Shown one piece after another: positions 47,304 to 64,000 of a DNA stretch of 64,000 nucleotides. The stretch is from Variovorax sp. V93. GTDB lineage: Bacteria > Pseudomonadota > Gammaproteobacteria > Burkholderiales > Burkholderiaceae_C. The notes below the pieces were generated by a model. That model was not told the DNA's origin and searched no databases. It worked only from the letters and a program-made list of their open reading frames with translations. The DNA is taken from positions 1,612,001 through 1,676,000 of the forward strand of contig NZ_AP028669.1 in NCBI RefSeq assembly GCF_041154485.1, given 5' to 3'. The position numbers and the translations under genes are program-made. How positions within the stretch are numbered: position 1 is the first letter of the stretch; each line of letters starts with the position of its first letter.

Positions 47304-48178
47304 AAGCCATCCGCATCCACGGCTTCGACGCGGTGCCCGTGCTCGAAGACCTGCCCGACCCGGCGCCGCGGCCCGGCCGCACCATCGTGCGCATGCAGGC
47401 CGCCACCGTCGGCCACATCGACCGCACCGTGTGGCGCGGCAGCTTCCTGCGCCATCCGCCGCTGCCCTACACGCCCGGCGTGGAAGCCGCAGGCGTTGTC
47501 CTCGCCAGCGGGCGTTTTGCCGCCGGAGCGCGCGTGTGGCTGCGCGGCAGCGGCCTGGGCACGCTGTTCGACGGCACCTGGTGTGAGCAGATCGATGCAC
47601 CCGACGAAGCGCTCGGCTTGCTGCCCGATGCACTGCCGATGACGGTCGGCGCCGCGTTCTTCTCGCCCACCACGTCGGCCTGGGTGGCGCTGCATGAAGT
47701 CGCGAAGCTGCAGGGCGGCGAGCAGGTGCTGGTCACGGGGGCGAGCGGTGCGGTGGGCTCGCTCGCCGTGCAGCTGGCGCGCGAGCTTGGCTGCACCGTG
47801 AGGGCGGTCGATCCGGACGCCGAAGCCCCGCCGCCCGCGAGTGCAGACCTGCTGATCGACACGGTCGGCGGCAGCGTTCTTTCGGCGGCCTTGCCTGCCG
47901 TGCGGCCCGGCGGGCGTGCCGTGCTCATCGGCTACACCGCAGGCCCCACGCTGCAGCTGGACATCGCGCACTTCCTGCAGCGCGACGTGGCGCTGCTGCC
48001 GCTCAACATGTTCAGGCGCGAAGCCGCCGGCCGGGCCGTGGCGCCCGAGCTGCTCGCGCGGCTGGCCGACGGCCGCCTGCACCTGGAGGTGCGCAGCTTC
48101 GCCCTGGCCGATGCCGCCATGGCGCTCGAATGGATCGCGCAGCGCGGTCATCGCGGCCGCGCGGTGCTGGTGCCCTAG
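47300..48178 (+). CDS. quinone oxidoreductase-like MDR family protein
   Basis: A 292-residue medium-chain dehydrogenase/reductase of the zinc-free quinone oxidoreductase type. Seen: an N-terminal GroES-like fold (TPGVEAAGVVLASG), the nucleotide site VLVTGASGAVGSLAVQLARELG at about 145, and VRPGGRAVLIGYTAG. The zinc ligands of alcohol dehydrogenases are absent. Substrate unknown, probably an enone or quinone reduced with NADPH. It starts inside the previous gene (ATGA), and its TAG stop shares the bases CTAG with the convergent marR stop. Confidence 0.82.
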   Translation: MKAIRIHGFDAVPVLEDLPDPAPRPGRTIVRMQAATVGHIDRTVWRGSFLRHPPLPYTPGVEAAGVVLASGRFAAGARVWLRGSGLGTLFDGTWCEQIDAPDEALGLLPDALPMTVGAAFFSPTTSAWVALHEVAKLQGGEQVLVTGASGAVGSLAVQLARELGCTVRAVDPDAEAPPPASADLLIDTVGGSVLSAALPAVRPGGRAVLIGYTAGPTLQLDIAHFLQRDVALLPLNMFRREAAGRAVAPELLARLADGRLHLEVRSFALADAAMALEWIAQRGHRGRAVLVP

Positions 48179-48651
48179 TCTTCCTCCGGCTCCTCGACTG
48201 GCACATGCACGTGCAGGTCGATCATCTGCCGCAGGGTCTGCTTCAGTTCTTCGGCGCGCCGCAGGCCGAAGGGTTCGAGCACGCGCCGCTCGTGGTCGCG
48301 CGCGAGTTCCATCAGGTGCTCCACCGCCTTCAAGCCCTTGCGCGTGATGCGCACCAGCGTGATGCGGCGATCACTTTCATGGGGCAGCCGCTCGACCTGT
48401 CCGCGTGCCTCCATGCGGTCGAGCAGCCGCGTGACGGTCGGCTGCTTGGTCACCGTCACCTGCGCGAGCTGGCCGATGCTGATCGGCTCGCTGCCCGCGA
48501 GCGAGGCCATCACGCGCCACTCGGACACGGAGAAGCCCTGCTGCCGCGCCACCTCGTGGAACTCCGAGGAGATCAGCTGGCTGGCCTGCGCCAGCAGTGC
48601 CGGCAGGTAGTCATCGACGAAGCGATGCGTTTCAGGAGAGGGCTCGGCCAT
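48175..48651 (-). CDS. MarR-family transcriptional regulator (probable regulator of the auxin catabolic operon)
   Basis: A 158-residue winged-helix dimer. DNA-binding features span about 40-115: FSVSEWRVMASLAGSEPISIGQL, TVTKQPTVTRLLDRMEARGQVERL and the wing HESDRRITLVRITRKG. It is divergent from the long catabolic operon across a 159-base AT-rich region with a TTGACA-containing element. As I recall, in Variovorax the indole-3-acetate degradation locus is controlled by MarR proteins that respond to auxin; this gene has the position and type of that repressor (sometimes called iadR). The ligand is inferred from context, not seen in the sequence. Confidence 0.85.
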   Translation of the reverse strand: MAEPSPETHRFVDDYLPALLAQASQLISSEFHEVARQQGFSVSEWRVMASLAGSEPISIGQLAQVTVTKQPTVTRLLDRMEARGQVERLPHESDRRITLVRITRKGLKAVEHLMELARDHERRVLEPFGLRRAEELKQTLRQMIDLHVHVPVEEPEED

Positions 48652-48723
48652 AGAGGCACCTCACGGCCAAGCGCCTCGAACCAGCCGCGGGCACGCTGTT
48701 TGCATGTCTAGGGTAATTCATGA

Positions 48724-48752
48724 TTGTGGATACATTCATTTGTCAACATTAT
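48724..48752 (+). promoter_or_regulatory. divergent promoter/operator between marR and the catabolic operon
   Basis: This is one of the few AT-rich stretches in the window. On the plus strand, TTGTGG (48724) and CATTAT (48747) are 17 bases apart and could be the promoter of the catabolic operon. On the minus strand, TTGACAAATGAATGTAT (48746 to 48730) carries a perfect -35 for marR and repeats the element found at 44333. The overlap of both promoters suits repression by MarR. Confidence 0.5.
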
Positions 48753-48810
48753 AGAAAGCACGGTGCGGCAGCTTGCACGCACCGTCCCACGAGAGAGAAC
48801 AAGGACCGAC

Positions 48811-51003
48811 ATGGCTGAGCGTTCGTTCGTCGAAGAAGTCAAGAAGCTGCGGCTTTCTGGCGGAGATGTGTTTCGCGGTGAAGGCATTCTGGCGGTCACC
48901 AAGGCCTTGCTCGAATCGGGAGTTTCCTATGTGGCGGGGTACCAGGGGGCACCCATCTCGCACCTGATGGACGTGCTGGCCGATGCGCAGGACATCCTCG
49001 CCGAGCAGGGCATCCGCTTCGAGAACAGCGCGAGCGAGGCCACCGCAGCCGCCACGCTGGCCGCTTCCGTCAACTATCCATTGCGCGGCGCCGTCACCTT
49101 CAAGGCTACCGTGGGTACCAACGTGGCCTCGGACGCGCTGGCCAACCTGGCCTCGGGCGGCGTGACCGGCGGCGCGCTGATCATCGTGGGCGAGGACTAC
49201 GGCGAGGGCTCGTCGATCATGCAGGAACGCAGCCATGCGTTCGCGATGAAGTCGCAGATCTGGCTGCTCGATCCGCGGCCCAACCTGCCGAGCATCGTCG
49301 ATGCGGTGAAGCAGGGCTTCGACCTTTCGGAAGCGAGCCATACGCCCGTGATGCTGCAGCTGCGCATCCGCGCCTGCCACGTGCACGGCCACTTCATTGC
49401 CGGCGACAACAAGCGCGCGAAGTTCACGCTCAAGGACGCGCTCGAGAATCCGCGGCGCGACGTCGGCCGCATCGTGCTGCCGCCCGCGAGCTTCGTGCAC
49501 GAGCAGGAGAAGGTGCGGGACCGCTGGCCCGCGGCCGTGCGCTTCATCGAGGAGCGCAAGCTCAACGAATTCTTCTCCGAGGACGCCGACGACATCGGCA
49601 TCATCGTGCAGGGCGGCAGCTACAACACGCTGCTGCGCGCACTCGAGCGGCTCGGCCTGGCCGACGTGTACGGCAACACCCAGGTGCCGCTCTACGTGAT
49701 GAACGTGGCCTACCCCGTCATCGAGAGCGAGGTGATCCGCTTCTGCGAAGGCAAGCGTGCGGTGCTGGTCGTGGAAGAGGGCCAGCCCAACTTCGTCGAG
49801 CAGAACCTCGCGACCATCCTGCGCCAGGCCGGCTCCACCACCGCGCTGCATGGCAAGGACATGCTGCCCGTGGCCGGCGAGTACACCGCATCCGAACTGC
49901 TGAAGGGCGCGCGCAGCTTCTGCGAGCGCTACGAACGCCTGGCGCCGCTGCCGGTGCCCGTGCCGGTGCGCAAGGTGATCCCGCTGAAGGAGGTGGCCGC
50001 CATCGGCGTCGATGCCGCACCCGAGCCGGCCATGCCGTCCTCCTCGCTTGCCGAGGTCGTGCATGCGCGCCCGCCGGGCTTTTGCACCGGCTGCCCCGAG
50101 CGGCCGATCTTCAGCGCGATGAAACTGGTCGAGCGCGAGCTTGGTGCGCACCACGTGAGCGCCGACATCGGCTGCCATCTGTTCTCGATCCTGCCGCCCT
50201 TCAACATCGGCAACACGACCATGGGCTACGGGCTCGGCGGCGCCGGCGCCTCGGCGCTCAATGCGCCGGCAGGCAAGCGAGCGATCTCGATGATGGGCGA
50301 CGGCGGCTTCTGGCACAACGGCCTGACCAGCGGCGTGGCGAATTCCGTCTTCAACAAGAGCGACAACCTCACCATCGTCGTCGACAACAACTACACCTCG
50401 GCCACGGGCGGCCAGGACATCCTCTCGTCGAACGCCGTCAACAGGACGCGCAGCACCGGCCACGAGATCGAGCGCGCCGTGCGCGGCGTGGGCGTCGAGT
50501 GGGTGAAGACGATGCGCCGCACCTACGACGTCGCCGGCATGCGCGACGCGCTGAAAGAAGCGCTGACCACGACGAAGAAGGGCCCCAAGGTCCTGATCGC
50601 GCAATCGGAATGCATGCTCAACAAGCAGCGCCGCGAGAAGCCGCTGGTGCGCAAGGCCATCGCCGACGGCAAGCGCATGGTGCGCGAGAAGTTCGGCGTC
50701 GATTCCGACACCTGCACCGGCGACCACTCGTGCATCCGCCTGTCGGGCTGTCCCTCGCTGTCGATCAAGCCGAATCCCGATCCGCTGCGCACCGACCCGG
50801 TCGCGACGGTGCTCGACAGCTGCGTGGGCTGCGGCGTGTGCGGCGAGGTCTCGCATGCCGCGGTGCTGTGCCCCTCGTTCTACAAGGCACAGATCGTGAG
50901 CAACCCGAGCCGCTGGGATGTGCTGCGCGAGCGCCTGCGCAGCGCCATCATCGGCTGGCTGCAGCGCGGCGAAGCGCGCCGCCGCGAAACCTATGCCTTC
51001 TGA
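48811..51003 (+). CDS. indolepyruvate ferredoxin oxidoreductase-type alpha subunit (TPP-dependent)
   Basis: A 730-residue 2-oxoacid:acceptor oxidoreductase subunit like IorA. The N-terminal PFOR-type domain starts near GNEAVTKA-like GILAVTKALLESGVSYVAGY; the TPP-binding motif runs GDGGFWHNGLTSG to VVDNN near residues 495-528. The C-terminal region has two ferredoxin-like Cys groups, CTGDHSCIRLSGC and CVGCGVCGEVSHAAVLC, for [4Fe-4S] clusters. IorAB turn arylpyruvates into arylacetyl-CoA. Within this cluster I infer that the 2-oxoacid is isatinate (2-aminophenylglyoxylate). Start at ATG 48811 with AAGGA; first gene of the operon, 3' overlap or near-contact with the beta subunit. Confidence 0.88.
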   Translation: MAERSFVEEVKKLRLSGGDVFRGEGILAVTKALLESGVSYVAGYQGAPISHLMDVLADAQDILAEQGIRFENSASEATAAATLAASVNYPLRGAVTFKATVGTNVASDALANLASGGVTGGALIIVGEDYGEGSSIMQERSHAFAMKSQIWLLDPRPNLPSIVDAVKQGFDLSEASHTPVMLQLRIRACHVHGHFIAGDNKRAKFTLKDALENPRRDVGRIVLPPASFVHEQEKVRDRWPAAVRFIEERKLNEFFSEDADDIGIIVQGGSYNTLLRALERLGLADVYGNTQVPLYVMNVAYPVIESEVIRFCEGKRAVLVVEEGQPNFVEQNLATILRQAGSTTALHGKDMLPVAGEYTASELLKGARSFCERYERLAPLPVPVPVRKVIPLKEVAAIGVDAAPEPAMPSSSLAEVVHARPPGFCTGCPERPIFSAMKLVERELGAHHVSADIGCHLFSILPPFNIGNTTMGYGLGGAGASALNAPAGKRAISMMGDGGFWHNGLTSGVANSVFNKSDNLTIVVDNNYTSATGGQDILSSNAVNRTRSTGHEIERAVRGVGVEWVKTMRRTYDVAGMRDALKEALTTTKKGPKVLIAQSECMLNKQRREKPLVRKAIADGKRMVREKFGVDSDTCTGDHSCIRLSGCPSLSIKPNPDPLRTDPVATVLDSCVGCGVCGEVSHAAVLCPSFYKAQIVSNPSRWDVLRERLRSAIIGWLQRGEARRRETYAF

Positions 51004-51007
51004 CGCG

Positions 51008-52516
51008 ATGACGAACAAGGCGCAACCGATAAAAATCGCGATCCTTGCCATGGGCGGGGAAGGAGGCGGCGTGCTGGCCGACTGGATCGTCGACATGGGC
51101 GAGGCCAATGGCTACGTCGCGCAGACCACCTCGGTGCCCGGCGTCGCGCAGCGCACCGGCGCGACCATCTACTACGTCGAGCTGTATCCCAATGCGCAGG
51201 CCGAGGCGGATGGCGGCCGTCCCGTGCTCGCGCTGATGCCGCTGCCGGGCGACGTCGACGTGGTGCTGGCGTCGGAGCTCATGGAGGCGGGGCGCGCGGT
51301 GCAGCGCGGACTCGTCACCAGCGACCGCACCACGTTGATCGCCTCCACGCACCGCGTGTTCTCGATCGCCGAGAAGAGCGCGCTCGGCGACGGCCGCGTC
51401 GACAGCGCGCAGCTGCTCGCGCACACCGCGCGGGCCGCCAAGCGCTTCATCCGCTTCGACATGGCGCAAGCCGCCGAAGCCGCGGGCAGCGTGATCAGCG
51501 CCGTGCTGTTCGGCGCGCTGGCCGGCTCGGGCGTGCTGCCGTTCAGTCGCGCGCAGTTCGAGGCCACCATCGAGCGCGGTGGCGTGGGCGTGAAGCCCAG
51601 CCTCAAGGCCTTTGGCGGCGCATTCGCCCGTGCCCAAGGCGGCGACGATGGCGAAACGCCACCCGAAACCGCTGCGGCCACATCGGCCCCGCAACCGCGC
51701 CACCCGGCCGTGCGCGCGCTGGTCGAACATGTGCAGCACGGCTTCCCGCCAGCCGCGCAGGACTTCCTGCTGGAGGGCGTGCGCCGCCTCATCGACTACC
51801 AGGACCCGGCCTATGCCGGCCTGTACCTGGATCGCATGGGCGCGATCGCTGCCCTGCCGAACAACGGCGATCACCGCCTGCTGCGCGAAACCGCGCGCTA
51901 TCTCGCGCTCTGGATGTCGTACGAAGACACGGCCCGTGTCGCCGCGCTCAAGACCCGTGCCACCCGCTTCGAGCGCGTGCGCGGCGAGGCGCGCGTGCAG
52001 CCCGGCCAGGTGCTCGCCATCAACGAGTACATGCATCCGCGCCTGCAGGAAATCTGCGAGACGCTGCCGGGCGGCCTGGGCCGCTGGCTCATGAATTCCA
52101 CGCTGCCGAAGAAGATCGTCGAGCGCTTCACGCAGCACGGCCGCGTGATCCGGACCAGCTCGCTGCGCGGCTACCTGATGTTGCGCACGGTGGCCGCCAT
52201 GAAGCGCTGGCGCCGCTCGACCATGCGCTATGCGGAAGAGAACCGCCGCATCGAGGAATGGCTGCAGCGCATTGCCGCCACCGCGCAGCGCAACCCCGAA
52301 CTGGCCGTCGAGCTCGCGCAGTGCCAGCGCCTGGTCAAGGGCTACAGCGACACGCACGAACGCGGCATCCGCAACTACGACACCGTGATGCGCGCGGTCG
52401 AGCGCGCCGGTGCGGCGCTGGCCCCGGCCACGCTGCGCGAGCTGCGCGATGCGGCGCTGGCCGACGAACACGGCCACAAGCTGCAGGCTGCGCTGGCGCA
52501 GCACGCATTGGCCTGA
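51008..52516 (+). CDS. indolepyruvate ferredoxin oxidoreductase-type beta subunit with DUF6537-like extension
   Basis: A 502-residue partner of the TPP subunit. Residues about 8-195 form the gamma-type PFOR domain (IAILAMGGEGGGVLADWIVDM, GVAQRTGATIYYVEL, IERGGVGVKPSLKAF). Residues about 230-500 form a helical domain found in DUF6537-type beta subunits (YLALWMSYEDTARVAALKTR, VERFTQHGRVIRTSSLRGYL). Start choice: ATG 51008 lies four bases after the alpha stop; ATG 50993 would overlap it and add five residues. Both subunits are needed for oxidoreductase activity in this family. Confidence 0.86.
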   Translation: MTNKAQPIKIAILAMGGEGGGVLADWIVDMGEANGYVAQTTSVPGVAQRTGATIYYVELYPNAQAEADGGRPVLALMPLPGDVDVVLASELMEAGRAVQRGLVTSDRTTLIASTHRVFSIAEKSALGDGRVDSAQLLAHTARAAKRFIRFDMAQAAEAAGSVISAVLFGALAGSGVLPFSRAQFEATIERGGVGVKPSLKAFGGAFARAQGGDDGETPPETAAATSAPQPRHPAVRALVEHVQHGFPPAAQDFLLEGVRRLIDYQDPAYAGLYLDRMGAIAALPNNGDHRLLRETARYLALWMSYEDTARVAALKTRATRFERVRGEARVQPGQVLAINEYMHPRLQEICETLPGGLGRWLMNSTLPKKIVERFTQHGRVIRTSSLRGYLMLRTVAAMKRWRRSTMRYAEENRRIEEWLQRIAATAQRNPELAVELAQCQRLVKGYSDTHERGIRNYDTVMRAVERAGAALAPATLRELRDAALADEHGHKLQAALAQHALA

Positions 52517-52536
52517 AGAGACATAACGGACGCACG

Positions 52537-53529
52537 ATGACCGCTCCCACCGCCACGCTCCAGCTTCGCGTTGCCGAAGCGCGCCAGCTCAATCCGCTGA
52601 TCCGCATGCTGCGGCTGCGCGCCGAGGACGGCCGCGCGCTGCCTGGCTTTACGGCGGGCGCCCACATCCGCGTGCAAGTATCACTGCCCGAAGGCAAGAC
52701 CGACTGGCGCCACTATTCGCTGATCAACTTTGCGACGGCGCGCAACGCCACCAACGCGCCGACGGAATACGTGATCGCCGTGCGCAAGGAGGCCGAGGGC
52801 CGTGGCGGCTCGCGCTTCATGCACGAGCAACTGAAAGAGGGCGACACCCTCGCCATCGAGGCGCCGAAGAACGACTTTCCGTTGCACACCGGCCCGGGCG
52901 GCTCGGTGCTGGTGGCGGGTGGCATCGGCGTCACGCCGCTCGCCACCATGGCCGCGCGCCGCCGCGCCGAGGGCGCCCCGGTGCGCATGCACTATGCCGG
53001 CCGCAGCCGCGAACTGATGGCCTTTTTGCCCGAACTGCAGGCGCTGCTCGGCGACGACCTGCGCGTGCATGCCGACGCCGAAGCAGGCGCGCCGCTGGAT
53101 ATCGACGCGTTGCTCGACGGCGTGCCCGCGGGCGACCGCCTCTACGTCTGCGGTCCCAAGCTCATGCTCGACGCCATGCTGGCCCGCACCCAGGCGCGCG
53201 GCTGGGAGCACGACCGCGTGCACTTCGAGCTCTTCACCGAGCCGGTTGCGGAAGAGGGCGACCAGCCCTTCGAGGTGGAACTCGCGCAATCGGGCCAGCG
53301 CTTCACCGTGCCGGCCGACCAGAGCATCCTCGACTGCCTGATCGAGCACGGCTGCGACCCGATGTTCGACTGCAAGCGCGGCGAATGCGGCGTGTGCGCC
53401 ACGCCCGTGCTCGAAGGCGAGATCGACCACCGCGACTACGTGCTGACCGCCCGCGAGAAGGCGGAAGGCAACGTGATGCAGATCTGCATCTCGCGTGCCA
53501 AGGGTGCGCGCCTGGTGCTCGACATCTGA
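52537..53529 (+). CDS. iadC: PDR/VanB-type reductase of the Rieske dioxygenase
   Basis: A 330-residue electron carrier with the phthalate dioxygenase reductase layout: flavin domain (WRHYSLINFA), NAD domain (GGIGVTPLATMAA and VCGPKLMLDAML) and a C-terminal plant-type [2Fe-2S] ferredoxin with C279, C284, C287 and C317. It passes electrons from NADH to the oxygenase encoded next. From memory, iadC, iadD and iadE of Variovorax convert indole-3-acetate to dioxindole-3-acetate; the order here matches that set. The symbol rests on this resemblance. Confidence 0.82.
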   Translation: MTAPTATLQLRVAEARQLNPLIRMLRLRAEDGRALPGFTAGAHIRVQVSLPEGKTDWRHYSLINFATARNATNAPTEYVIAVRKEAEGRGGSRFMHEQLKEGDTLAIEAPKNDFPLHTGPGGSVLVAGGIGVTPLATMAARRRAEGAPVRMHYAGRSRELMAFLPELQALLGDDLRVHADAEAGAPLDIDALLDGVPAGDRLYVCGPKLMLDAMLARTQARGWEHDRVHFELFTEPVAEEGDQPFEVELAQSGQRFTVPADQSILDCLIEHGCDPMFDCKRGECGVCATPVLEGEIDHRDYVLTAREKAEGNVMQICISRAKGARLVLDI

Positions 53530-53548
53530 AGCAGGAGCCACGAGAACC

Positions 53549-54862
53549 ATGACCTCGTACCGAGACAACCCCGATGCCATCCGCGCGCTGGTTCAGAACG
53601 ACCGCGTGCACCGCGACCTGTACACCAGCCAGGAACTGTTCGAGCTGGAGCAGGAGCACTTCTTTGCCAACACCTGGAACTACGTCGGCCACGAGAGCCA
53701 GCTGCCGAAACCCGGCGACTGGATCAGCAACGAGATCGCCGGCCGCCCGCTGATCGTCGTTCGCCACGCCGACGGCAGCGTGCGCGCGATGATGAACCGC
53801 TGCGCCCACAAGGGCTCGCGGCTGGTGAACGGGCCTTGCGGCAACACCGGCAAGTTCTTCCGCTGCCCGTACCACGCCTGGACCTTCAAAACCGACGGTG
53901 CGCTGCTCGCCATTCCGCTGAAGACCGGCTACGAGAACACCGCGCTGCACGCGTGCGAATCGGCCAAGGGACTGACCACGCTCAGCCATGTGCGCAGCCA
54001 CCGCGGCTTCATCTTCGTGAAGATCAACGATGCGGGGCCGGACTTCGACGCGTACTTCGGCGATTCGCTGAGCTCTATCGACAACATGGCCGACCGCTCG
54101 CCCGAGGGCGAACTCGAGATCGCGGGCGGCTGCCTGCGCTTCATGCACCAGTGCAACTGGAAGATGTTCGTCGAGAACCTCAACGACACCATGCACCCCA
54201 TGGTGGCGCACGAATCCTCGGCCGGCACCGCCAAGCGCATGTGGGCCGACAAGCCCGCCGACGAGCCCAAGCCCATGGCGGTCGAGCAGTTCGTGCCCTT
54301 CATGTCCGACTACAAGTTCTTCGAGGACATGGGCATCCGCACCTACGACAACGGCCACAGCTTCACGGGCGTGCACTTCAGCATCCACAGCAAGTACAAG
54401 GCGATCCCGGCCTATGACGACGCCATGAAGGCGCGCTACGGCGAGGAAAAAACCGCGCAGATCCTCGGCATGGCGCGCCACAACACGGTGTACTACCCGA
54501 ACCTCACGATCAAGGGCGCGATCCAGGCGATCCGCGTGGTCAAGCCGATCTCGGCCGACAGGACGCTGATCGAGAGCTGGACCTTCCGCCTCAAGGGCGC
54601 GCCGCCCGAGCTGCTGCAGCGCACCACCATGTACAACCGGCTCATCAACTCGCCGTTCTCGGTGGTGGGGCATGACGACCTGCAGGCCTACCGCGGCATG
54701 CAGGCCGGCCTGCATGCGAGCGGCAACGAGTGGGTGAGCCTGCATCGCAACTACGACCCGTCGGAGCTGAAGGGCGGAGAGATCACCACGGGCGGCACCA
54801 ACGAGCTGCCGATGCGCAACCAGTACCGCGCATGGGTCCAGCGCATGATGGAGACCATGTGA
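53549..54862 (+). CDS. iadD: Rieske aromatic ring-hydroxylating dioxygenase alpha subunit
   Basis: A 437-residue catalytic subunit. The Rieske [2Fe-2S] ligands are C85, H87, C106 and H109; the mononuclear iron site shows D213, H216 and H221 in LNDTMHPMVAH, where D213 would be the bridging Asp between subunits. It uses O2 and electrons from the reductase to oxidise the substrate ring. Placement beside MarR, PDR reductase and beta subunit fits the Variovorax auxin dioxygenase. A shorter start would remove the conserved MTSYRDNP that is repeated in the second alpha subunit at 63372. The stop overlaps the beta subunit start by one base. Confidence 0.88.
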   Translation: MTSYRDNPDAIRALVQNDRVHRDLYTSQELFELEQEHFFANTWNYVGHESQLPKPGDWISNEIAGRPLIVVRHADGSVRAMMNRCAHKGSRLVNGPCGNTGKFFRCPYHAWTFKTDGALLAIPLKTGYENTALHACESAKGLTTLSHVRSHRGFIFVKINDAGPDFDAYFGDSLSSIDNMADRSPEGELEIAGGCLRFMHQCNWKMFVENLNDTMHPMVAHESSAGTAKRMWADKPADEPKPMAVEQFVPFMSDYKFFEDMGIRTYDNGHSFTGVHFSIHSKYKAIPAYDDAMKARYGEEKTAQILGMARHNTVYYPNLTIKGAIQAIRVVKPISADRTLIESWTFRLKGAPPELLQRTTMYNRLINSPFSVVGHDDLQAYRGMQAGLHASGNEWVSLHRNYDPSELKGGEITTGGTNELPMRNQYRAWVQRMMETM

Positions 54863-55350
54863 TGGCCGGCATCGAAGTCACCCGCCAGGTCCTGATCGAT
54901 TTCGTCGTGAACGAAGCGCACCTGCTCGACACGCGCCGCTACGAGGAGTGGAACGCGCTCTTTACCGACGATGCCTTCTACTGGGTGCCGCTGGTTCCCG
55001 ACCAGGAAGACGGCCTCAACCACACCTCGCATCTCTACGAGGACAAGCTGCTGCGCGAACTGCGCATCGAGCGCCTCAAGAGCCCGCGCGCCTTCTCGCA
55101 ACAGCCGCCGAGCCGCTGCCACCACCTGCTGCAGGTTCCGGTGGTCGAGCAGTTCGATGCCGAAGCCAACCGCTTCGTGGTGCGCACTGGATTCCACTAC
55201 ACCGAATCGCAGGGCGACGAGCTTCAGTTCTACGTCGGCACCTTCTTCCATCACCTCACGGTGCGGGACGGCGCGCTGCGCATGACGCTCAAGCGCGTCA
55301 ACCTGCTCAACTGCGACGCGGCGCTGCCGGCCGTGCAGCTCTTCATCTAG
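54862..55350 (+). CDS. iadE: aromatic ring-hydroxylating dioxygenase beta subunit
   Basis: A 162-residue small subunit of the SnoaL/NTF2-like fold that gives structural support to the alpha3beta3 oxygenase. Seen: FVVNEAHLLDTRRYEEWNALF, DAFYWVPLVP, the LRIERLKSPRAFSQQPPSR segment and the C-terminal TLKRVNLLNCDAALPAVQLFI, all typical. It starts at the ATG within TGATG at the alpha subunit stop, so the subunits are translated together. Confidence 0.87.
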   Translation: MAGIEVTRQVLIDFVVNEAHLLDTRRYEEWNALFTDDAFYWVPLVPDQEDGLNHTSHLYEDKLLRELRIERLKSPRAFSQQPPSRCHHLLQVPVVEQFDAEANRFVVRTGFHYTESQGDELQFYVGTFFHHLTVRDGALRMTLKRVNLLNCDAALPAVQLFI

Positions 55351-55357
55351 GCGCGCG

Positions 55358-56986: not shown

Positions 56987-58155
56987 CGAAGCAGCGGCTC
57001 TCCTACGAAGGCGTTGCGGTGGCCGTGCCGGTCACGATGCCTTATGTGCGCTACTCCACGCGCACCGCGCACTGGTTCATCGGGCAGGCCATCGAGGCGC
57101 TGGTCGAAGCCAGCGGCGTGGCCAAGGAGCAGATCGATGGCCTCTGCCTGAGCAGCTTCTCGCTTGCGCCCGACACCGCCGTGGGCGTCACGCAGCACCT
57201 GGGCCTGTCGCCGCGCTGGCTCGACCACGTGCCCACGGGCGGCGCCTCGGGCGTGATGTGCCTGCGCCGCGCGGCGCGCGCCGTGCAGGCGGGCGATGCC
57301 GACATCGTGGCCTGCGTGGGCGCCGACACCAACCACGTCGACTCCTTCCGCCAGACGCTCGGCAGCTTCAGCAACTTCGCGCGCGATGCGAGCTATCCCT
57401 ACGGCTCGGGCGGGCCGAACTCGATCTTTGCCTTCATCACCGCCAACTACATGCGCACCTACGGCGCGAAACGCGAGGACTTCGGCCGTATCTGCGTCGA
57501 CCAGCGCACCAATGCGCTCGGCAACCCGAACGCGATGTTCAAGAAGCCGCTCACGCTCGACGAGTACATGGCCGCTCGGCCGATCTCCGACCCGATCCAT
57601 CTTTTCGACTGCGTGATGCCCTGCGCGGGTGCCGATGCCTTCCTCGTGATGAGCGAGGAGCGCGCGCGAGACCTCGGTCTTGCGCACGTGGTGATCCGCG
57701 GCGCCATCGAGCGCCACAACGCCTATGCCGAAGACCCGGTGATGGTGCAGGGCGGCTGGCGCATGGACCGCGACGACCTCTACGCGCAGGCCGGCATCCA
57801 GCCCGCGGAACTCGACTTCGTGCAGACCTACGACGACTATCCCGTCATCGTGATGATGCAGTTCGAGGATCTGGGCTTCTGCGAGAAGGGCGAGGGCCCG
57901 GCCTTCGTGCAGTCGCACACGATGACCTTCGACGGCAGCTTTCCGAACAACACGAGCGGGGGGCAGCTCTCGTCCGGGCAGGCCGGTGCAGCGGGCGGCT
58001 TCCTCGGCATGGTCGAGGCGATCCGGCAGCTCACGGACCAAGCCGGACAACGCGCTGTGCCGAACGCCCGGCTGGGCCTCGTCGCCGGCTTCGGCATGGT
58101 CACTTACGACCGCTGCCTGTGCACAGGCGCCGTCATTCTCGGGAGATCGGCATGA
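56983..58155 (+). CDS. thiolase-superfamily protein without thiolase Cys/His (Ltp2-like, retro-aldolase candidate)
   Basis: A 390-residue thiolase-fold protein of the SCP-x/lipid-transfer group. At the position of the thiolase nucleophile it reads PTGGASG (G86-G90), so the Cys is replaced by Gly; near the C-terminus GHP is GQA with Q333 in place of His. Catalytic thiolysis is therefore unlikely. The same pattern occurs in Ltp2-type proteins that, with a DUF35 partner, split beta-hydroxyacyl-CoAs by retro-aldol reaction. A DUF35 protein is encoded next, overlapping by ATGA. I infer cleavage of a tertiary beta-hydroxyacyl-CoA to isatin and acetyl-CoA. Confidence 0.85.
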   Translation: MTKQRLSYEGVAVAVPVTMPYVRYSTRTAHWFIGQAIEALVEASGVAKEQIDGLCLSSFSLAPDTAVGVTQHLGLSPRWLDHVPTGGASGVMCLRRAARAVQAGDADIVACVGADTNHVDSFRQTLGSFSNFARDASYPYGSGGPNSIFAFITANYMRTYGAKREDFGRICVDQRTNALGNPNAMFKKPLTLDEYMAARPISDPIHLFDCVMPCAGADAFLVMSEERARDLGLAHVVIRGAIERHNAYAEDPVMVQGGWRMDRDDLYAQAGIQPAELDFVQTYDDYPVIVMMQFEDLGFCEKGEGPAFVQSHTMTFDGSFPNNTSGGQLSSGQAGAAGGFLGMVEAIRQLTDQAGQRAVPNARLGLVAGFGMVTYDRCLCTGAVILGRSA

Positions 58156-59405
58156 CGATGCCCCTGATGCGCCCCCCGCGCAAGAACCCGGTGCTGCGCA
58201 CCCGGCAGATGAACCTGCCGCCCGGCGCGCGCGGCCGCGTGGCGCTCGGCCTCACGGCGGCCGCCGCCGAAGGTCGCTTCGAGCTGCAGGCCTGCGACCG
58301 ATGCGGCACGGTGCAGTACCCGCCGCGCGAGGTCTGCCATAAGTGCCTCTCGGCCTCCTTGCGCTGGCGCGCACAGAGCGGCGAGGGCGAACTGCTCGGC
58401 AGCACCACGCTGCACCACAGCAACGACCTGTTCTTCCGCGAGCGGCTGCCCTGGCGGCTGGGCCTGGTGCACCTGGATGCCGGACCGACGCTCATGGTCC
58501 ACCTGCATGGCGAGGTCGGCGATGCGCCTGAGCGCGTGCGTGTCGGCGCCCGGCTCGATCGAGCTGGGCAGGCCGTTCTCATTGGTTTTCCGATTGAAGG
58601 GAGTCCCCACATGGCCGACGACAAGATGCTGCGCGAGATGACCAGCGACCCGAAGTTCCGCAAGGTGCTGGTGACCGACGGGAAGACCGAGACCGGCCAG
58701 GCCATCGTGCGTGCGCTGGTCAAGGCCGGCGCAGACATCGTCTGGGTCGGCCATGCCGAGCCGTGGAAGAAGATGGGCGATGGGCTTGACGACATCTCGG
58801 CGCTGCCGCAAGTCACGCTGGTGCCGCTGGACCTGACCAACGGCCGGCAGGTGACCGAGCTCGCGGGCTCCATCGGCGGCAAGGTCGACATCGTGATCAA
58901 CAACGCGGAGGTGCACCGCACTTTCGGCATCGGCGCGCGCCGCGGCACCGACGTGGCCAAGGCCGAGATGGACATCAACTACTTCGGTCTGCTGCGCCTC
59001 GCGCAGGAGTTCGGCCCCGCGCTCAAGGGCCGCTCGGCCGACGGCACGACGGGTGCCACGGCCTGGGTCAACCTGCTGTCGATCTACGCGCTCAGCAACT
59101 TCCCGCCGCACGGCACCTTCAGCGCTTCGAAAGCGGCGGCGCACTCGCTCGCGCAGTGCCTGCGCGCCGAGATGCGGCCGGCCGGCATCCGCGTGATCAA
59201 TGTGTTCCCGGGCCCCATCGACGACGAATGGAACCAGCACACGCCGCCGCCCAAGCTGGCACCCACCGCGCTGGCCAATGCCATCGTCAAGGCGCTGCGC
59301 GACGGCGTCGAGGACGTCTATCCCGGCGACGTGGCGCAGGAGTGGCTGGAGCGCTGGCGAGACAACCCGAAGGTGCTCGAACGCGAACTCGCGGCGGGCG
59401 GCTGA
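58152..59405 (+). CDS. DUF35 OB-fold/zinc-ribbon domain fused to a degenerate SDR domain
   Basis: A 417-residue fusion. Residues 1-150 are a DUF35 protein with a zinc ribbon (C48, C51, C62, C65) and an OB fold; from about 154 on it is a short-chain dehydrogenase fold. The SDR part lacks the usual glycine motif (TDGKTETG), has NNAE instead of NNAG and F323 where the catalytic Tyr should be, with K327 kept. A strong ribosome site (GAAGGGAG, 58596) seven bases before an in-frame ATG at 58611 could let the SDR part be made alone. Partner of the thiolase-like protein upstream by analogy with Ltp2-ChsH2. Confidence 0.84.
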   Translation: MTMPLMRPPRKNPVLRTRQMNLPPGARGRVALGLTAAAAEGRFELQACDRCGTVQYPPREVCHKCLSASLRWRAQSGEGELLGSTTLHHSNDLFFRERLPWRLGLVHLDAGPTLMVHLHGEVGDAPERVRVGARLDRAGQAVLIGFPIEGSPHMADDKMLREMTSDPKFRKVLVTDGKTETGQAIVRALVKAGADIVWVGHAEPWKKMGDGLDDISALPQVTLVPLDLTNGRQVTELAGSIGGKVDIVINNAEVHRTFGIGARRGTDVAKAEMDINYFGLLRLAQEFGPALKGRSADGTTGATAWVNLLSIYALSNFPPHGTFSASKAAAHSLAQCLRAEMRPAGIRVINVFPGPIDDEWNQHTPPPKLAPTALANAIVKALRDGVEDVYPGDVAQEWLERWRDNPKVLERELAAGG

Positions 59406-59421
59406 GACAGGAGCCAAACGA

Positions 59422-60234
59422 ATGACCACGACAACCGAACTGATGTCCGCCGCAGAAATCCTCGGCGGCCTCGTGACCGCGATGGCCAGCGGCCGCATCC
59501 GCGTGATCGACCTCACGCAGACGCTCACGCCCGAGTTCCCGCAGATCGCGCTGCCGCCCGAGATGGGCCAGTGCTGGCCCTTCCGCATCGAGGAAGTGTC
59601 GAAGTACGACGAGCGCGGCCCGGGCTGGTACTGGAACAATTTTTCCTGCGGCGAGCACACCGGAACGCACTTCGACGCGCCCATCCACTGGATCTCGGGC
59701 CGCGACCTGCCGAACAACTCGGTCGACACCATTCCCGTGCAGCACTTCGTGGCGCCGGCCTGCGTGATCGACTGCTCGGCCGACGTGCAGGCGAACGACG
59801 ACTACCTGCTGAGCGTGGCCGACATCGAGCGCTACGAAGCGGCACACGGCCGCATCCCGAAGGGCGCATGGGTGCTGATGCGCACCGACTGGTCCAAGCG
59901 CAGCGACCCCGAGGCCTACCAGAACTTCGACGAGACCGGACAGCACACGCCCGGCCCGAGCACCGAGGCCGTGCGCTTCCTGGTCGAGCAGCGTGACGTG
60001 CTGGGCTTCGGCTCCGAGGCCATCGGCACCGATGCGGGGCAGGGCTATCACCTGCGGCCGCCATACCCGTGCCACTACTACATGCACGGCGCGGGGCGCT
60101 ACGGGCTGCAATGCCTGAGCAACCTCGACCTGCTGCCACCCTCGGGCGCGGTGCTGATCTGCCCGCCGCTCAAGATCGAGAAGGGCAGCGGCAGTCCGCT
60201 GCGGGTGCTCGCGCTGGTGGGAGCTTCAACATGA
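59422..60234 (+). CDS. cyclase-family metal-dependent hydrolase, isatin hydrolase candidate
   Basis: A 270-residue member of the cyclase/KynB superfamily with an intact metal site HTGTHFDAPIH at 79-89. Characterised relatives of this size include isatin hydrolase, a Mn-dependent enzyme that opens isatin to isatinate, besides KynB and polyketide cyclases. IAA breakdown through isatin is known from Bradyrhizobium, and the surrounding operon fits, so I favour isatin hydrolase. Substrate assignment is inference from context. The ATG at 59422 has CAGGAG upstream; the stop overlaps the SDR start (ATGA). Confidence 0.82.
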   Translation: MTTTTELMSAAEILGGLVTAMASGRIRVIDLTQTLTPEFPQIALPPEMGQCWPFRIEEVSKYDERGPGWYWNNFSCGEHTGTHFDAPIHWISGRDLPNNSVDTIPVQHFVAPACVIDCSADVQANDDYLLSVADIERYEAAHGRIPKGAWVLMRTDWSKRSDPEAYQNFDETGQHTPGPSTEAVRFLVEQRDVLGFGSEAIGTDAGQGYHLRPPYPCHYYMHGAGRYGLQCLSNLDLLPPSGAVLICPPLKIEKGSGSPLRVLALVGAST

Positions 60235-60962
60235 GCACGGCGCCCAAGGTCGCGGCCGTCACCGGCGGCAGCGCCGGCATCGGCAAGGCAATCTGCGAAG
60301 ACCTGCTCGCGCAGGGCTACGAGGTGGTGTCGCTCGCGCGCCGCAAGGCCGGGATCGACCATCCGAGACTGCACAGCATCGAGGTCGACCTGAGCGACCG
60401 TGCCGCCACGGGCGAGGCGGTGCGCGAACTGGTCGAGCGCTTTTCGCCGACCACCATCGTGCACAACGCTGGCGTGATCCGCGCGGCGTTGCTGCCCGAA
60501 GTGAAGCTCGGCGATCTCGATGCGCTGGTCGACCTGCACCTGGGCTGTGCCATCCAGCTGGTGCAGGGCGCATTGCCCGCGATGCGCGCACAGCGCTTCG
60601 GCCGCGTGGTGCTGCTGTCGTCGCGCGCCGCGCTCGGCCTGGCCACGCGCACCAGCTATTCGGCCACCAAGGCCGGCATGCTGGGCATGGCGCGCACCTG
60701 GGCGCTCGAGCTGGCCGCGGACGGCATCACCGTGAACGTGGTGGCACCGGGTCCGATCCGCACTGACATGTTCTACGACGTGGTCGAGGCCGGCAGCGAG
60801 AAGGAACGCGCGCTCGCCGCCTCCGTGCCTGTCAAGCGGCTCGGCGAAGCGGCCGACGTGGCACGCGCCGTGCGTTTCTTTGCCGACCCCGACAGCAGCT
60901 TCATCACCGGGCAGGTGCTCTACGTCTGCGGCGGCACCAGCGTCGGCAGCCTCGCCCTCTAG
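60231..60962 (+). CDS. SDR family oxidoreductase
   Basis: A 243-residue classical short-chain dehydrogenase with an intact active site: TGGSAGIG at 11-18, HNAG, Ser in LLSSRAA, Y143 and K147 in YSATK, and the PGPIRTDMF loop. Such enzymes reduce or oxidise an alcohol/ketone with NAD(P). In this operon it may act on a hydroxy- or oxo-indole intermediate such as dioxindole/isatin, or remove a side product. It overlaps the cyclase-family gene (ATGA) and is followed after 53 bases by the binding-protein genes. Confidence 0.88.
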   Translation: MSTAPKVAAVTGGSAGIGKAICEDLLAQGYEVVSLARRKAGIDHPRLHSIEVDLSDRAATGEAVRELVERFSPTTIVHNAGVIRAALLPEVKLGDLDALVDLHLGCAIQLVQGALPAMRAQRFGRVVLLSSRAALGLATRTSYSATKAGMLGMARTWALELAADGITVNVVAPGPIRTDMFYDVVEAGSEKERALAASVPVKRLGEAADVARAVRFFADPDSSFITGQVLYVCGGTSVGSLAL

Positions 60963-61015
60963 TTTTTTCCGCGTTCATCCGTTCCGTTCAAAAACATCAC
61001 CTCTGGAGCATCGCC

Positions 61016-62182
61016 ATGAAAGTCCTGAACCGATTCCGTGCCGTCGCGGGCATTGCCGCGGCCTTCGGCGCCCTGAGCGCCGCGGGCGCGTGGGCGGCCG
61101 ATCTCAAGGTCGGCTTCATCACGTCGCTGTCGGGACCGGTGTCGTCGCTCGGCATTCCCTACGAGAAGGGCATGAAGGCCGCGATCGCCTACCAAGCCGA
61201 CATCGGCGGTCGCAAGATCCAGCTGGTGCAGCTCGACGACGCCTCCGATCCGTCCACGGCCGCGCGCAACGCACGCAAGATGATCGACGAGGACAAGGTC
61301 GACGTGATCATCGGCACGGCCGGTTCGCCCGGCGCGCTGGCCATTGCCGGCGTGGCGCGCGAAACGAAGACGCCGCTGATCTCCATCGCCAACGCCAACC
61401 TGCCGGGCGAAGAGGGCGCATGGATGGTCACGCTGCCGCAGCCTGCGCCGCTGATGGTGAGCGCGGTGGTCGAACGCATGAAGAAGTCGGGCGTGAAGAC
61501 GGTCGGCTACATCGGCTTTTCCGACGCCTGGGGCGACCTGGTGTACGGCGCGCTGCAAAAGAGCGCGGAGCCTGCAGGCATCAAGATCGTCTCGAACGAG
61601 CGCTATGCGCGCGCCGATTCATCGGTGACCGGCCAGGTACTCAAGATCGTGGCCCTGCGGCCCGATGCGGTGATCACCGGCACCTCGGGCACGCCCGGTG
61701 CGCTGCCCTACCTGGCGCTTGCGGAGCGCGGCTACAAGGGCCAGATCTACGGCATGCATGCGCTGATCAACCCGGACTTCGTGCGCGTGGGCGGTGCCTC
61801 GGTCGAAGGGCTGCTCGCGCCCACCGGCCCGGTGATCGTGGCCGAGCAGTTGCCGAGCGAGAACCCGATCCGCAAGGTGTCGATGGATTTCCGCGCGGCC
61901 TACCAGAAGGCCAACGGCGCGCCGCCGACCGATGCCTTCTCGGCCTACACCTTCGATGCCTGGCTGCTGTACCTCGACGCGGCCCAGCGCGCGCTCGCCA
62001 CCAAGGCCGAGCCCGGCACGCCGCAGTTCCGCCTTGCGCTGCGCGACGCCATCGTGAGTACCAAGGAGCTGGTGGGCACGCACTCGGTCTACAACTTCAA
62101 GCCGACGGACCGCTATGGATCGGACGAACGGTCGCGCGTTGTCGTGAAGCTGGAAAAAGGCCAGTGGAAGCTGGTTCCCTGA
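61016..62182 (+). CDS. ABC transporter substrate-binding protein (type I fold), first copy
   Basis: A 388-residue periplasmic binding protein of the branched-chain amino acid/aromatic acid class. Signal peptide with cleavage after AWA at about residue 27, then DLKVGFITSLSGPVSSLG, the first strand of the fold. It is a close paralogue of the next gene, 25 bases downstream. In an aromatic catabolic operon it probably binds the substrate (auxin or related aromatic acid) or an intermediate. No permease or ATPase gene lies before the window edge, so the rest of the transporter is not visible here. Confidence 0.88.
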   Translation: MKVLNRFRAVAGIAAAFGALSAAGAWAADLKVGFITSLSGPVSSLGIPYEKGMKAAIAYQADIGGRKIQLVQLDDASDPSTAARNARKMIDEDKVDVIIGTAGSPGALAIAGVARETKTPLISIANANLPGEEGAWMVTLPQPAPLMVSAVVERMKKSGVKTVGYIGFSDAWGDLVYGALQKSAEPAGIKIVSNERYARADSSVTGQVLKIVALRPDAVITGTSGTPGALPYLALAERGYKGQIYGMHALINPDFVRVGGASVEGLLAPTGPVIVAEQLPSENPIRKVSMDFRAAYQKANGAPPTDAFSAYTFDAWLLYLDAAQRALATKAEPGTPQFRLALRDAIVSTKELVGTHSVYNFKPTDRYGSDERSRVVVKLEKGQWKLVP

Positions 62183-62207
62183 AACAACATACGCTGGAGC
62201 AACCTCA

Positions 62208-63353
62208 ATGAAAAAGAACCTGGCCCGGATCCTCGGCCTCACCGCCGTGGCACTGGCGGCCGCACAAGCCATGGCGGCCGACCTCAAGATCGGCTTCATC
62301 AGCTCGCTCTCGGGCCCGGTCGCTGCCTTGGGCGTGCCGTACGAGAAGGGCATTCGCGCCGCCATTGCCGAACACCCGGAAATCGGCGGCCGCAAGGTCC
62401 AGCTGATCGTGCTCGACGATGCCTCCGACCCCACCACCGCCGGGCGCAACGCGCGCAAGCTGGTGGTGGAAGACAAGGTCGACGTGCTGATCGGCACCTC
62501 GGGCGTGCCGGGCGCGATGGCCATCGCATCGGTGGCGCGCGAACTCAACACCCCGCTGATCTCGCCCACGCCCGTCACCATCCCCGGCCCCGAAGGCGCA
62601 TGGACCGTGACCGTGTCGCAGCCGTTCCAGCTCATGGTCGCAGGCGTGGTCGAACGCATGCAGAAGTCCGGCGTGAAGACCGTGGCCTTCATCGGCTTTT
62701 CCGATGCGCTGGGCGACCTGGCCTACGACTCGCTCGTGAAGAGCGCCGACAAGGCCGGCATCAAGGTGGTCGCGAACGAGCGCTATGCGCGCAGCGATTC
62801 CTCGGTGGCCGGGCAGGTGCTCAAGATCGTCGCGCAGCGGCCCGATGCCGTGTTTGCCGGCAACTCGGGCACGCCCGGCGCGCTGCCCTACCTCGCGCTC
62901 GCCGAGCGCGGCTACAAGGGAAAGATCTACGGCACGCACGGCCTCATCAACGCCGACTTCGTGCGCGTGGGTGGTGCCGCCATCGAAGGCCTGCAGGTGC
63001 CCAGCGGCCCCGTGCTGGTGGCCGACCAGCTGCCCGACAGCAACCCGATCAAGAAGGTGTCGATGGGCTTTCGCAACGCCTACCAGAAGGTGAACGGCGC
63101 GGTGCCGACCGATGCCTTCTCGTCCTACACCTACGACGCCTACCTGCTGCTGGCCGATGCGGCCTCGCGCACCAAGGGCGAGCCCGGCACGCCGCAGTAC
63201 CGCAGCGCGCTGCGCGACGCCATCGCCAGCACCAAGGAATTGGTGGGCACGCACGGCATCTACACCTTCAAGCCCGACGACCGCTACGGTTCCGACCAGC
63301 GCGGCGTGGTGATCGTGCAGATGAACAAGGGCCAGTGGAAGCTCGTTCCCTGA
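62208..63353 (+). CDS. ABC transporter substrate-binding protein (type I fold), second copy
   Basis: A 381-residue paralogue of the preceding gene with its own signal peptide (cleavage after AMA at about residue 23). Long blocks are the same in both (SGTPGALPYLALAERGYKG, DASDP, TKELVGTH, KGQWKLVP). They arose by tandem duplication; even the ribosome site context CTGGAGCA is shared. Differences cluster in the pocket region (for example ISIANANLPG versus ISPTPVTIPG at the hinge), so the two may bind different ligands. The second Rieske gene follows 18 bases later. Confidence 0.88.
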   Translation: MKKNLARILGLTAVALAAAQAMAADLKIGFISSLSGPVAALGVPYEKGIRAAIAEHPEIGGRKVQLIVLDDASDPTTAGRNARKLVVEDKVDVLIGTSGVPGAMAIASVARELNTPLISPTPVTIPGPEGAWTVTVSQPFQLMVAGVVERMQKSGVKTVAFIGFSDALGDLAYDSLVKSADKAGIKVVANERYARSDSSVAGQVLKIVAQRPDAVFAGNSGTPGALPYLALAERGYKGKIYGTHGLINADFVRVGGAAIEGLQVPSGPVLVADQLPDSNPIKKVSMGFRNAYQKVNGAVPTDAFSSYTYDAYLLLADAASRTKGEPGTPQYRSALRDAIASTKELVGTHGIYTFKPDDRYGSDQRGVVIVQMNKGQWKLVP

Positions 63354-63371
63354 GAAGCTGAGCGCCCGCCG

Positions 63372-64000
63372 ATGACCAGCTACCGCCATCATCCAGACCG
63401 CATCGCCGCGCTCGTGCAGGATGACCGCGTGCACCGCGACCTGTACCTGAGCGAGGAGATCTTCGCGCTCGAGCAGGAACGCCTGTTCGCGAACACCTGG
63501 GTCTATCTCGGCCACGCGAGCCAGGTGCCGGAGCCGGGAGACTTCGTGGCGCAGGACATTGCGGGCCGGCCGCTGCTCATGGTGCGCCAGCCCGACGGCG
63601 CGGTGCACGTCATGTACAACCGCTGCGCCCACAAGGGCACGCAGCTGGTGACCGACGAATGCGGCAACACCGGCCGCTTCTTCCGCTGCCCTTACCACGC
63701 CTGGACCTACAAGCTCGACGGCGCACCGCTCGGTGTGCCGCTGAAGAACGGCTACGAAGGCACGCAGCTCAAGGCCTGCGAGTCGGGTCGTGGGCTTTCG
63801 GTGGTGAAACACGTGAAGGTCTACCGCGACTTTGTGTTCGTGCGGCTCGCGGACACCGGCCCCTCGTTCGAGGACTACTTCGGCGAGGTGCTCGGCGCCA
63901 TCGACAACATGGTCGACCGCTCGCCCGAGGGCCGGCTCACGGTCGGCGGCGGCGTGCTGCGCAACATCGTCCACTGCAACTGGAAGATGTACCTCGAGAA
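63372..64000 (+). CDS. second Rieske dioxygenase alpha subunit (3' end outside window)
   Basis: The reading frame opens at ATG 63372 and runs to the window edge, 209 complete codons without a stop. The Rieske ligands C85, H87, C106 and H109 are present, and the last residues (HCNWKMYLE) precede the mononuclear iron site, which lies outside. Aligned with the first alpha subunit at 53549 there are no gaps, and 41 of the first 60 residues are identical by eye. It is thus a duplicate oxygenase subunit in the same operon, perhaps for a second oxygenation step or another substrate. Its beta subunit is not in view. Confidence 0.9.
   Translation, partial: MTSYRHHPDRIAALVQDDRVHRDLYLSEEIFALEQERLFANTWVYLGHASQVPEPGDFVAQDIAGRPLLMVRQPDGAVHVMYNRCAHKGTQLVTDECGNTGRFFRCPYHAWTYKLDGAPLGVPLKNGYEGTQLKACESGRGLSVVKHVKVYRDFVFVRLADTGPSFEDYFGEVLGAIDNMVDRSPEGRLTVGGGVLRNIVHCNWKMYLE

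Follow-up and report, generated by a model that had tools for sequence, protein, structure and literature searches.

The 64,000-nucleotide stretch of the Variovorax sp. V93 genome analysed here (the window; bases 1612001-1676000 of contig C1 in a genome of 6.74 Mb and two contigs) carries an operon that, by sequence comparison, is firmly identified as the published Variovorax iad operon for degradation of indole-3-acetate (IAA) to anthranilate. The locus is thus not new, but its proteins suggest a new assignment for the cleavage of the IAA side chain. In the pathway that we consider probable as a whole, the thiolase-fold protein IadG and its DUF35-containing partner IadH would split dioxindole-3-acetyl-coenzyme A (CoA) into isatin and acetyl-CoA by a retro-aldol reaction, and IadI would open isatin to isatinate.

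A marR-type gene on the minus strand diverges from a plus-strand operon in which twelve genes are complete and a thirteenth is cut by the window end, with intergenic gaps of at most 53 bp and overlaps of 1-4 bp between several genes (Table 1); domain scans of the operon proteins uphold the gene names. The preliminary description of this DNA gave the order and strands of the named genes, all of which are open, as found here, but counted eleven complete genes and a partial twelfth, at odds also with its own list, which names twelve plus one. The regulator differs from crystallised IadR (7kki) at 4 of 158 residues and has all seven IAA-contact residues listed for MarR_73/IadR in Conway 2022. IadD is matched over 437 residues by both 9o71 (1015.7 bits), which is CL014 IadDE according to Jiang 2025 (PMC12633357), and 7yls, and it contains all nine IAA-pocket residues given in PMC10374108. 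The first of two binding proteins matches 7ylt and is taken to be IadK2, since Ma 2023 equates IadK2 with CL14 gene 62, adjoining gene 63 of the H-J group. It is because of these matches to solved IadR, IadD and IadK2 that the identification is firm, and they bear out the earlier reading of a MarR-controlled, iad-type IAA degradation pathway.

The nine-gene core from iadC to iadK2 is present in order. Comparison with the iad locus of Variovorax paradoxus CL14 (PMC9613470, PMC10374108, PMC12633357), which the preliminary description had proposed as a check, gave the same genes in the same order wherever these papers name them, with near-identical IadR and IadD, a matching IadK2 and no difference in gene content found within the window. 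A reading of the locus as new was rejected in view of the near-identical IadR and IadD and of 96.9% DNA identity with Variovorax beijingensis T529 over 17,031 aligned bases of stretch 46001-64000. The annotated operon genes do not include iacA or other iac markers, for which the genome was not searched, and a search of PMC10374108 for iadL, iadM and iadK1 found nothing.

The first steps of the pathway have been described for CL14. In the 2025 preprint (Jiang 2025, PMC12633357), deletions, overexpression and isotopes identify IadCDE as a monooxygenase and IadJ as the enzyme that yields C10H9NO4 (dioxindole-3-acetate); the preliminary description had credited this compound to IadCDE alone, which does not hold. 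The same text reports that anthranilate is lowered by deleting iadF, iadG, iadH, iadI or iadJ and is brought back in the deletion strain by iadC-K2, that the iadG deletion accumulates C10H9NO4, and that C8H7NO2 builds up in the iadI deletion and in a strain expressing iadCDEFGH_JK2. It also describes a C8H7NO3 compound shown not to be N-formylanthranilate. IadF to IadI were assigned there by annotation, as an acyl-CoA synthase, a ketothiolase, an alcohol dehydrogenase and a kynurenine formamidase read as a broad amidase; the step assignments proposed here for IadG, IadH and IadI depart from these.

In the mechanism that we favour, IAA would lift the repression of the operon by IadR, as published for CL14; IadCDE would oxygenate IAA and IadJ would oxidise the hydrated product to dioxindole-3-acetate, as in the published genetics and isotope tracing. 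IadF would then make the CoA thioester of dioxindole-3-acetate. IadG, with IadH holding it through the DUF35 domain, would cleave this thioester by the kind of retro-aldol reaction with which the aldolases Sal-Shy and Ltp2-ChsH2 act on steroid side chains; Tyr283 would be the base, and Asp285 stands at the place of the Sal catalytic Cys. Hydrolysis of isatin by IadI would follow, and IadA/IadB would be the likeliest enzyme for decarboxylation of isatinate towards anthranilate. We infer the catalytic steps from IadF to IadB; gene content, orthology, active-site residues and co-occurrence are observed. The beta carbon of dioxindole-3-acetate bears a tertiary alcohol and cannot become a beta-ketoacyl-CoA, and ordinary beta-oxidation and thiolysis are therefore closed to this compound. 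Judging by the formulas, retro-aldol cleavage would be open and redox-neutral (C10H9NO4 = C8H5NO2, isatin, + C2H4O2), and hydrolysis of isatin would give C8H7NO3, the same formula as that of the compound found by Jiang.

The active site of IadG was compared across 80 iad loci with IadG. The position of the thiolase Cys is Gly (Gly87) in all 80, so that the nucleophilic Cys of EC 2.3.1.16 is absent; in the alignment, Cys stands at this position in 7pxp, 7yvy and three of the four paralogues from the same genome. The YD-x-[FY] motif of the catalytic Tyr, combined with Gly for Cys, was likewise found in 80 of 80 loci (numbering checked against CtSal and TcLtp2), and both the catalytic Tyr (Tyr283) and the two Gln of the Sal retro-aldolase are kept in IadG, which groups with CtSal in the tree (support 84/96). 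The second catalytic residue differs: Asp285 lies at the place of Sal Cys304 and Gln333 near that of Ltp2 Tyr344, and IadG would therefore belong to neither type but be a third variant. The active-site residues, the tree and the DUF35 partner together support cleavage of dioxindole-3-acetyl-CoA into isatin and acetyl-CoA, a new step assignment for these genes, and favour the earlier suggestion that acetyl-CoA is released by retro-aldol cleavage. An aldolase reading of IadG-IadH was not found stated in the literature searched, most subscription papers being outside its reach, and the string 'aldol' occurs 0 times in PMC12633357 and in PMC11630574. The reported lack of IAA binding by Iad proteins F to J is neutral for this assignment. 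Among the matches listed, the 120 homologues each of IadG and IadH are near relatives; three of each were used, in trial alignments.

The closest solved counterpart is the bile-acid aldolase Sal-Shy of Comamonas testosteroni (9MYR, PMC12329534). Like IadG, Sal has a thiolase fold with Gly in place of the Cys, and the catalytic Tyr, the two Gln and a DUF35 partner with a zinc pattern are common to both pairs. Sal reads YDCY where IadG reads YDDY, the zinc pattern of Shy is Cys3His1 whereas that of IadH is the canonical Cys4, the Sal-Shy partner bears a MaoC hydratase whereas IadH is DUF35 fused to a short-chain dehydrogenase/reductase (SDR) domain, and the substrate is a steroid in the former and presumably an indole in the latter. 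The steroid aldolase Ltp2-ChsH2 (6OK1) also shares the thiolase fold, the YD-x-[FY] Tyr motif and the DUF35 partner, but its second catalytic residue, Tyr344, aligns beside IadG Gln333, and the third motif residue is His in Ltp2 and Asp in IadG. Benzoylsuccinyl-CoA thiolase BbsAB (7PXP) resembles IadG-IadH in pairing a thiolase-fold subunit with a DUF35-type partner, yet it keeps Cys, HDAF and GHP, all three of which are missing from IadG.

Domain scans recognise zf-ChsH2 and OB_ChsH2_C in IadH, and the partner chain in each of the two solved aldolases is among its matches (9myr_B, E 1.2e-7; 6ok1_B, E 1.9e-6). The zinc pattern C48-x2-C51-x10-C62-x2-C65, the canonical DUF35 pattern named in the Sal paper (PMC12329534), is kept in 78 of 78 IadH. 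Where iadH was seen (78 loci), it lies 3' of iadG in the same orientation, no more than 400 bp away in 77 cases and 404 bp away in the remaining one; in two further loci the sequence piece stops just after iadG. The second half of IadH is an SDR domain, nearest to 5u4s, and matches to this domain fill the fold lists, which consequently say nothing on the DUF35 part. We scored it on TGxxxGxG and YxxxK, which we take to be the SDR motifs. All 77 readable rows have Asp for the first Gly; at the Tyr position, 65 have Phe, three Trp and one Asn, the Tyr being retained in eight; the IadH of the window reads TDGKTETG and FSASK. The control, IadJ from 73 of the same loci, never lacks any of the three motif glycines, and all 72 readable rows show both Tyr and Lys. 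The SDR domain of IadH is thus likely, by its motifs, to be inactive; this loss is likely rather than proven because 5u4s, which was deposited with NADP (nicotinamide adenine dinucleotide phosphate), also aligns without the Tyr. A description of IadH as a plainly dead enzyme was softened for the same reason and because of the eight relatives that keep the Tyr.

IadI matches the isatin hydrolases 5nna and 5nmp (E 8e-110 for the latter), and an alignment read by eye shows that it has the residues for Mn binding, the shuttle of His, Asp and His, and the signature GLQC, as described in PMC6117287; the signature of isatin hydrolases is either GLQC or GLAS. IadI thus shares these features with isatin hydrolase A of Labrenzia and Ralstonia (5NNA, 5NMP, PMC6117287) and, unlike those enzymes, sits in an iad operon. 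That it is an isatin hydrolase opening isatin to isatinate is well supported by these residues, which in turn argue for the onward route to isatinate and for the passage through isatin that had been proposed from the DNA alone. No published activity for IadI was found in the literature examined, nor did the literature search find a paper joining 'isatin hydrolase' and 'Variovorax'.

Several points weigh against the mechanism. The support for grouping IadG with CtSal falls under the star line of the tool, and Ltp2 sits on a long branch. The CtSal catalytic Cys, changes of which to Ser, Ala or His abolished activity (PMC12329534), is Asp in IadG. In PMC12633357, C8H7NO2, which is two hydrogens richer than isatin, is placed on the path, and iadAB is dispensable for anthranilate in the strain complemented with iadC-K2. 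The best-surviving alternative, though an unlikely one, is that of the 2025 preprint, in which IadG would act as a genuine ketothiolase (EC 2.3.1.16) and IadH would be a functional alcohol dehydrogenase, the acetyl group being removed reductively to give C8H7NO2. The build-up of this compound in both strains is what recommends it, together with the thiolase fold of IadG and the SDR domain of IadH, in which the Tyr survives in the eight relatives; it has to contend with Gly at the thiolase Cys place throughout, with Asp at the first SDR Gly throughout, with loss of the Tyr from 69 of 77 readable rows and with the tertiary alcohol, which bars formation of a beta-ketoacyl-CoA. C8H7NO2 has the formula of dioxindole and may instead be an off-path reduction product; isatin is readily reduced by carbonyl reductases. 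It is slightly less likely still that IadG-IadH catalyses another reaction of the thiolase superfamily, for example a PhlC-like non-decarboxylative acyl transfer, or acts on a different intermediate. The acyltransferase PhlC (5m3k) is indeed among the DUF35-partnered thiolase-fold proteins, and Asp at the Sal Cys place is a change, but IadG is without the Cys that aligns with the thiolase nucleophile and has the same Tyr and Gln residues as Sal, and the C10H9NO4 reported for the iadG deletion in the preprint is what a block after dioxindole-3-acetate would be expected to give.

Under the retro-aldol mechanism, isatinate would have to be converted to anthranilate, for which IadA/IadB is a reasonable candidate because isatinate is a 2-oxoacid: IadA has a thiamine pyrophosphate (TPP) domain and IadB scores above the cut-off of its IorB-type family. 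Among 250 family genomes, IadA of at least 64% identity is present in 17 of the 17 with IadG and in 12 of the 233 without it (absence scored at E 1e-100), the 64% line having been set after a gap above a group at 48-61% was seen, with G454 (61%, part length) falling below it. Four of the 12, and none of the 17, were counted from partial matches or with other quirks, and a Fisher p-value for the co-occurrence is only a guide because related genomes are not independent. The genomes with such an IadA and no IadG are G107, G445, G526, G537, G539, G545, G552, G563, G582, G618, G629 and G640 (some partial). Four loci (L083, L085, L089 and L093) have genes C to J without iadA/iadB in the stretch, and their genomes encode an IadA of 65-66% identity at another site; in eleven loci hand-picked from the 80, an IadA-like protein was found in all eleven genomes. 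IadA/IadB as an optional neighbour was accordingly rejected. A paralogue of 51% identity to IadA in the V93 genome (C1:4068291-4070441) could act as a backup and explain the iadC-K2 complementation, and C7H7NO, judging by its formula, would fit 2-aminobenzaldehyde, a product of isatinate decarboxylation. The earlier proposal that IadA/IadB converts isatinate to anthranilate is thus favoured by the 2-oxoacid oxidoreductase family and the co-occurrence of IadA and disfavoured by the restoration of anthranilate without iadAB, and we keep it as an inferred step.

The preliminary description also fitted every remaining gene to a step of IAA degradation, which the distal half of the locus contradicts. 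The second binding protein, named IadK3 because of gene order, is reported in PMC10374108 to bind neither IAA nor the tested analogues, and the second Rieske pair is without a known substrate. The cut gene encodes a second Rieske alpha subunit (D2) with its own beta subunit and 59% identity to IadD. As counted by eye, 33 of 36 other genomes of the genus hold both an IadD-like protein (56-60%) and D2 (at least 76%), and the other three (G369, G380, which is 62% complete, and G403) hold neither. The 46 D2-type rows, drawn from 44 loci, are invariant at Asn210, His216, His221 and Phe251. Gln takes the place of His311 in 43 of the 45 rows readable there, Lys322 is conserved in 43 of 45, and 44 of 46 have Ile or Val for Leu211; at these three positions it is L053 and L063, two rows of about 40% identity, that deviate. 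IadD-type rows have His311 in 71 of 71. The natural reading of IadK3, the altered Rieske pair and a second CoA ligase is that the distal half serves a second, related substrate. That the operon as a whole is mainly for another substrate, with IAA incidental, is very improbable: the same distal genes could be cited for it, but IadR, IadD and IadK2 match proteins solved with IAA or shown to bind it, and both IadR and IadD retain their IAA-contact residues.

Further downstream, L004:6965-11162 contains the second CoA ligase (NF004808, 872.9 bits against a cut-off of 722), two SDRs, a frame of 175 residues that looks MarR-like (L004:10177-10704) and a thioesterase-like frame (L004:10704-11162), the last two named by eye only; the MarR-like frame may correspond to the second MarR, IadR2, at the far end of iad-like loci. 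NCBIfam names for CoA ligases and SDRs were too general and were not used. A more distant locus, L008, encodes IadG-like (62% identity) and IadH-like (36%) proteins and places genes G and H and that of an SDR consecutively, the interval from H to the SDR being free of an isatin hydrolase gene.

The iadR-iadA region may contain a further layer of control. GGCA-N6-TTGC, presumably the core of a sigma-54 promoter, faces iadA in 37 of 47 such regions (the window and 46 loci, from related genomes that are not independent) and is missing from ten, against an average of 0.105 in mononucleotide shuffles. The most conserved block of the region lies just 3' of this element and has one match in the V93 genome at up to three mismatches; it is put forward as a candidate IadR operator because of its conservation, a palindrome search having returned weak palindromes only (best 14/20). 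According to Conway 2022, some IAA induction remains in the absence of IadR, for which a second layer of control could account; that text contains neither the word promoter nor rpoN. Of 19 PF00158 matches in the genome none is in the locus, the nearest on C1 being at 1831118, and the locus contains no sigma-54 activator gene.

The coordinates of all features are collected in Table 1. IadC of CL14 is described in the literature as a flavin mononucleotide-type, phthalate-dioxygenase-reductase-like protein. Tail to tail with iadR are three overlapping plus-strand genes (45496-48178) of the 3-hydroxyacyl-CoA dehydrogenase, alpha/beta hydrolase and zinc-type dehydrogenase families.

Table 1 Features of the iad locus. 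Coordinates are window bases taken from open reading frame calls, with start codons picked by us; base 1 of L004 is window base 63001.
Feature	Coordinates	Strand	Evidence
iadR, MarR-type IAA-responsive repressor	48175..48651	-	PDB 7kki, E 7.3e-96
Putative sigma-54-like element GGCA-N6-TTGC facing iadA	48690..48703	+	37/47 iadR-iadA regions
Candidate IadR operator	48719..48738	.	Conservation
iadA, IorA-like TPP-dependent 2-oxoacid oxidoreductase subunit	48811..51003	+	PF02775; TIGR03336 288.8 bits, below cut-off 650.9
iadB, IorB-like subunit	51008..52516	+	NF006179 749.7 bits, cut-off 348
iadC, flavin/[2Fe-2S] reductase	52537..53529	+	PF00111, PF00970, PF00175
iadD, Rieske oxygenase alpha subunit	53549..54862	+	9o71 and 7yls over 437 residues
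iadE, Rieske oxygenase beta subunit	54862..55350	+	PF00866
iadF, acyl-CoA ligase	55358..56986	+	PF00501, PF13193
iadG, thiolase-fold protein, read as retro-aldolase	56983..58155	+	Catalytic residues, tree, fold matches
iadH, DUF35 (ChsH2-type) domain fused to SDR domain with degenerate motifs	58152..59405	+	Domain scan, alignments
iadI, isatin hydrolase A type	59422..60234	+	5nna, E 4.1e-111; GLQC signature
iadJ, SDR dehydrogenase with intact motifs	60231..60962	+	Domain scan, alignment; role from Jiang 2025
iadK2, IAA-binding periplasmic protein	61016..62182	+	7ylt, E 1.5e-233
Second binding protein, IadK3 by position	62208..63353	+	7ylt, E 1.6e-170; gene order
Second Rieske alpha subunit (D2), cut by window end	63372..64000, ends L004:1697	+	Domain scan
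Beta subunit of second Rieske pair	L004:1694-2161	+	Overlaps end of second Rieske alpha gene

We advance only tentatively, and with more doubt than confidence, the composite proposal that IadG-IadH is a DUF35-dependent aldolase outside steroid catabolism, with a Tyr-Asp arrangement and an inert SDR scaffold, which cuts dioxindole-3-acetyl-CoA, that a distal module made up of IadK3, the second CoA ligase and the second Rieske pair, in which Gln replaces His311, serves another indole-type acid, and that a sigma-54 promoter stands beside IadR. The iad pathway is in use for engineering auxin-removing root bacteria, yet general annotation is the basis for its middle steps. With a retro-aldolase and then an isatin hydrolase, the route would be redox-neutral, mass-balanced and open to single-enzyme assays. 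If true, this assignment would correct the functions of three published genes and would extend a kind of aldolase from steroid degradation to a plant hormone.

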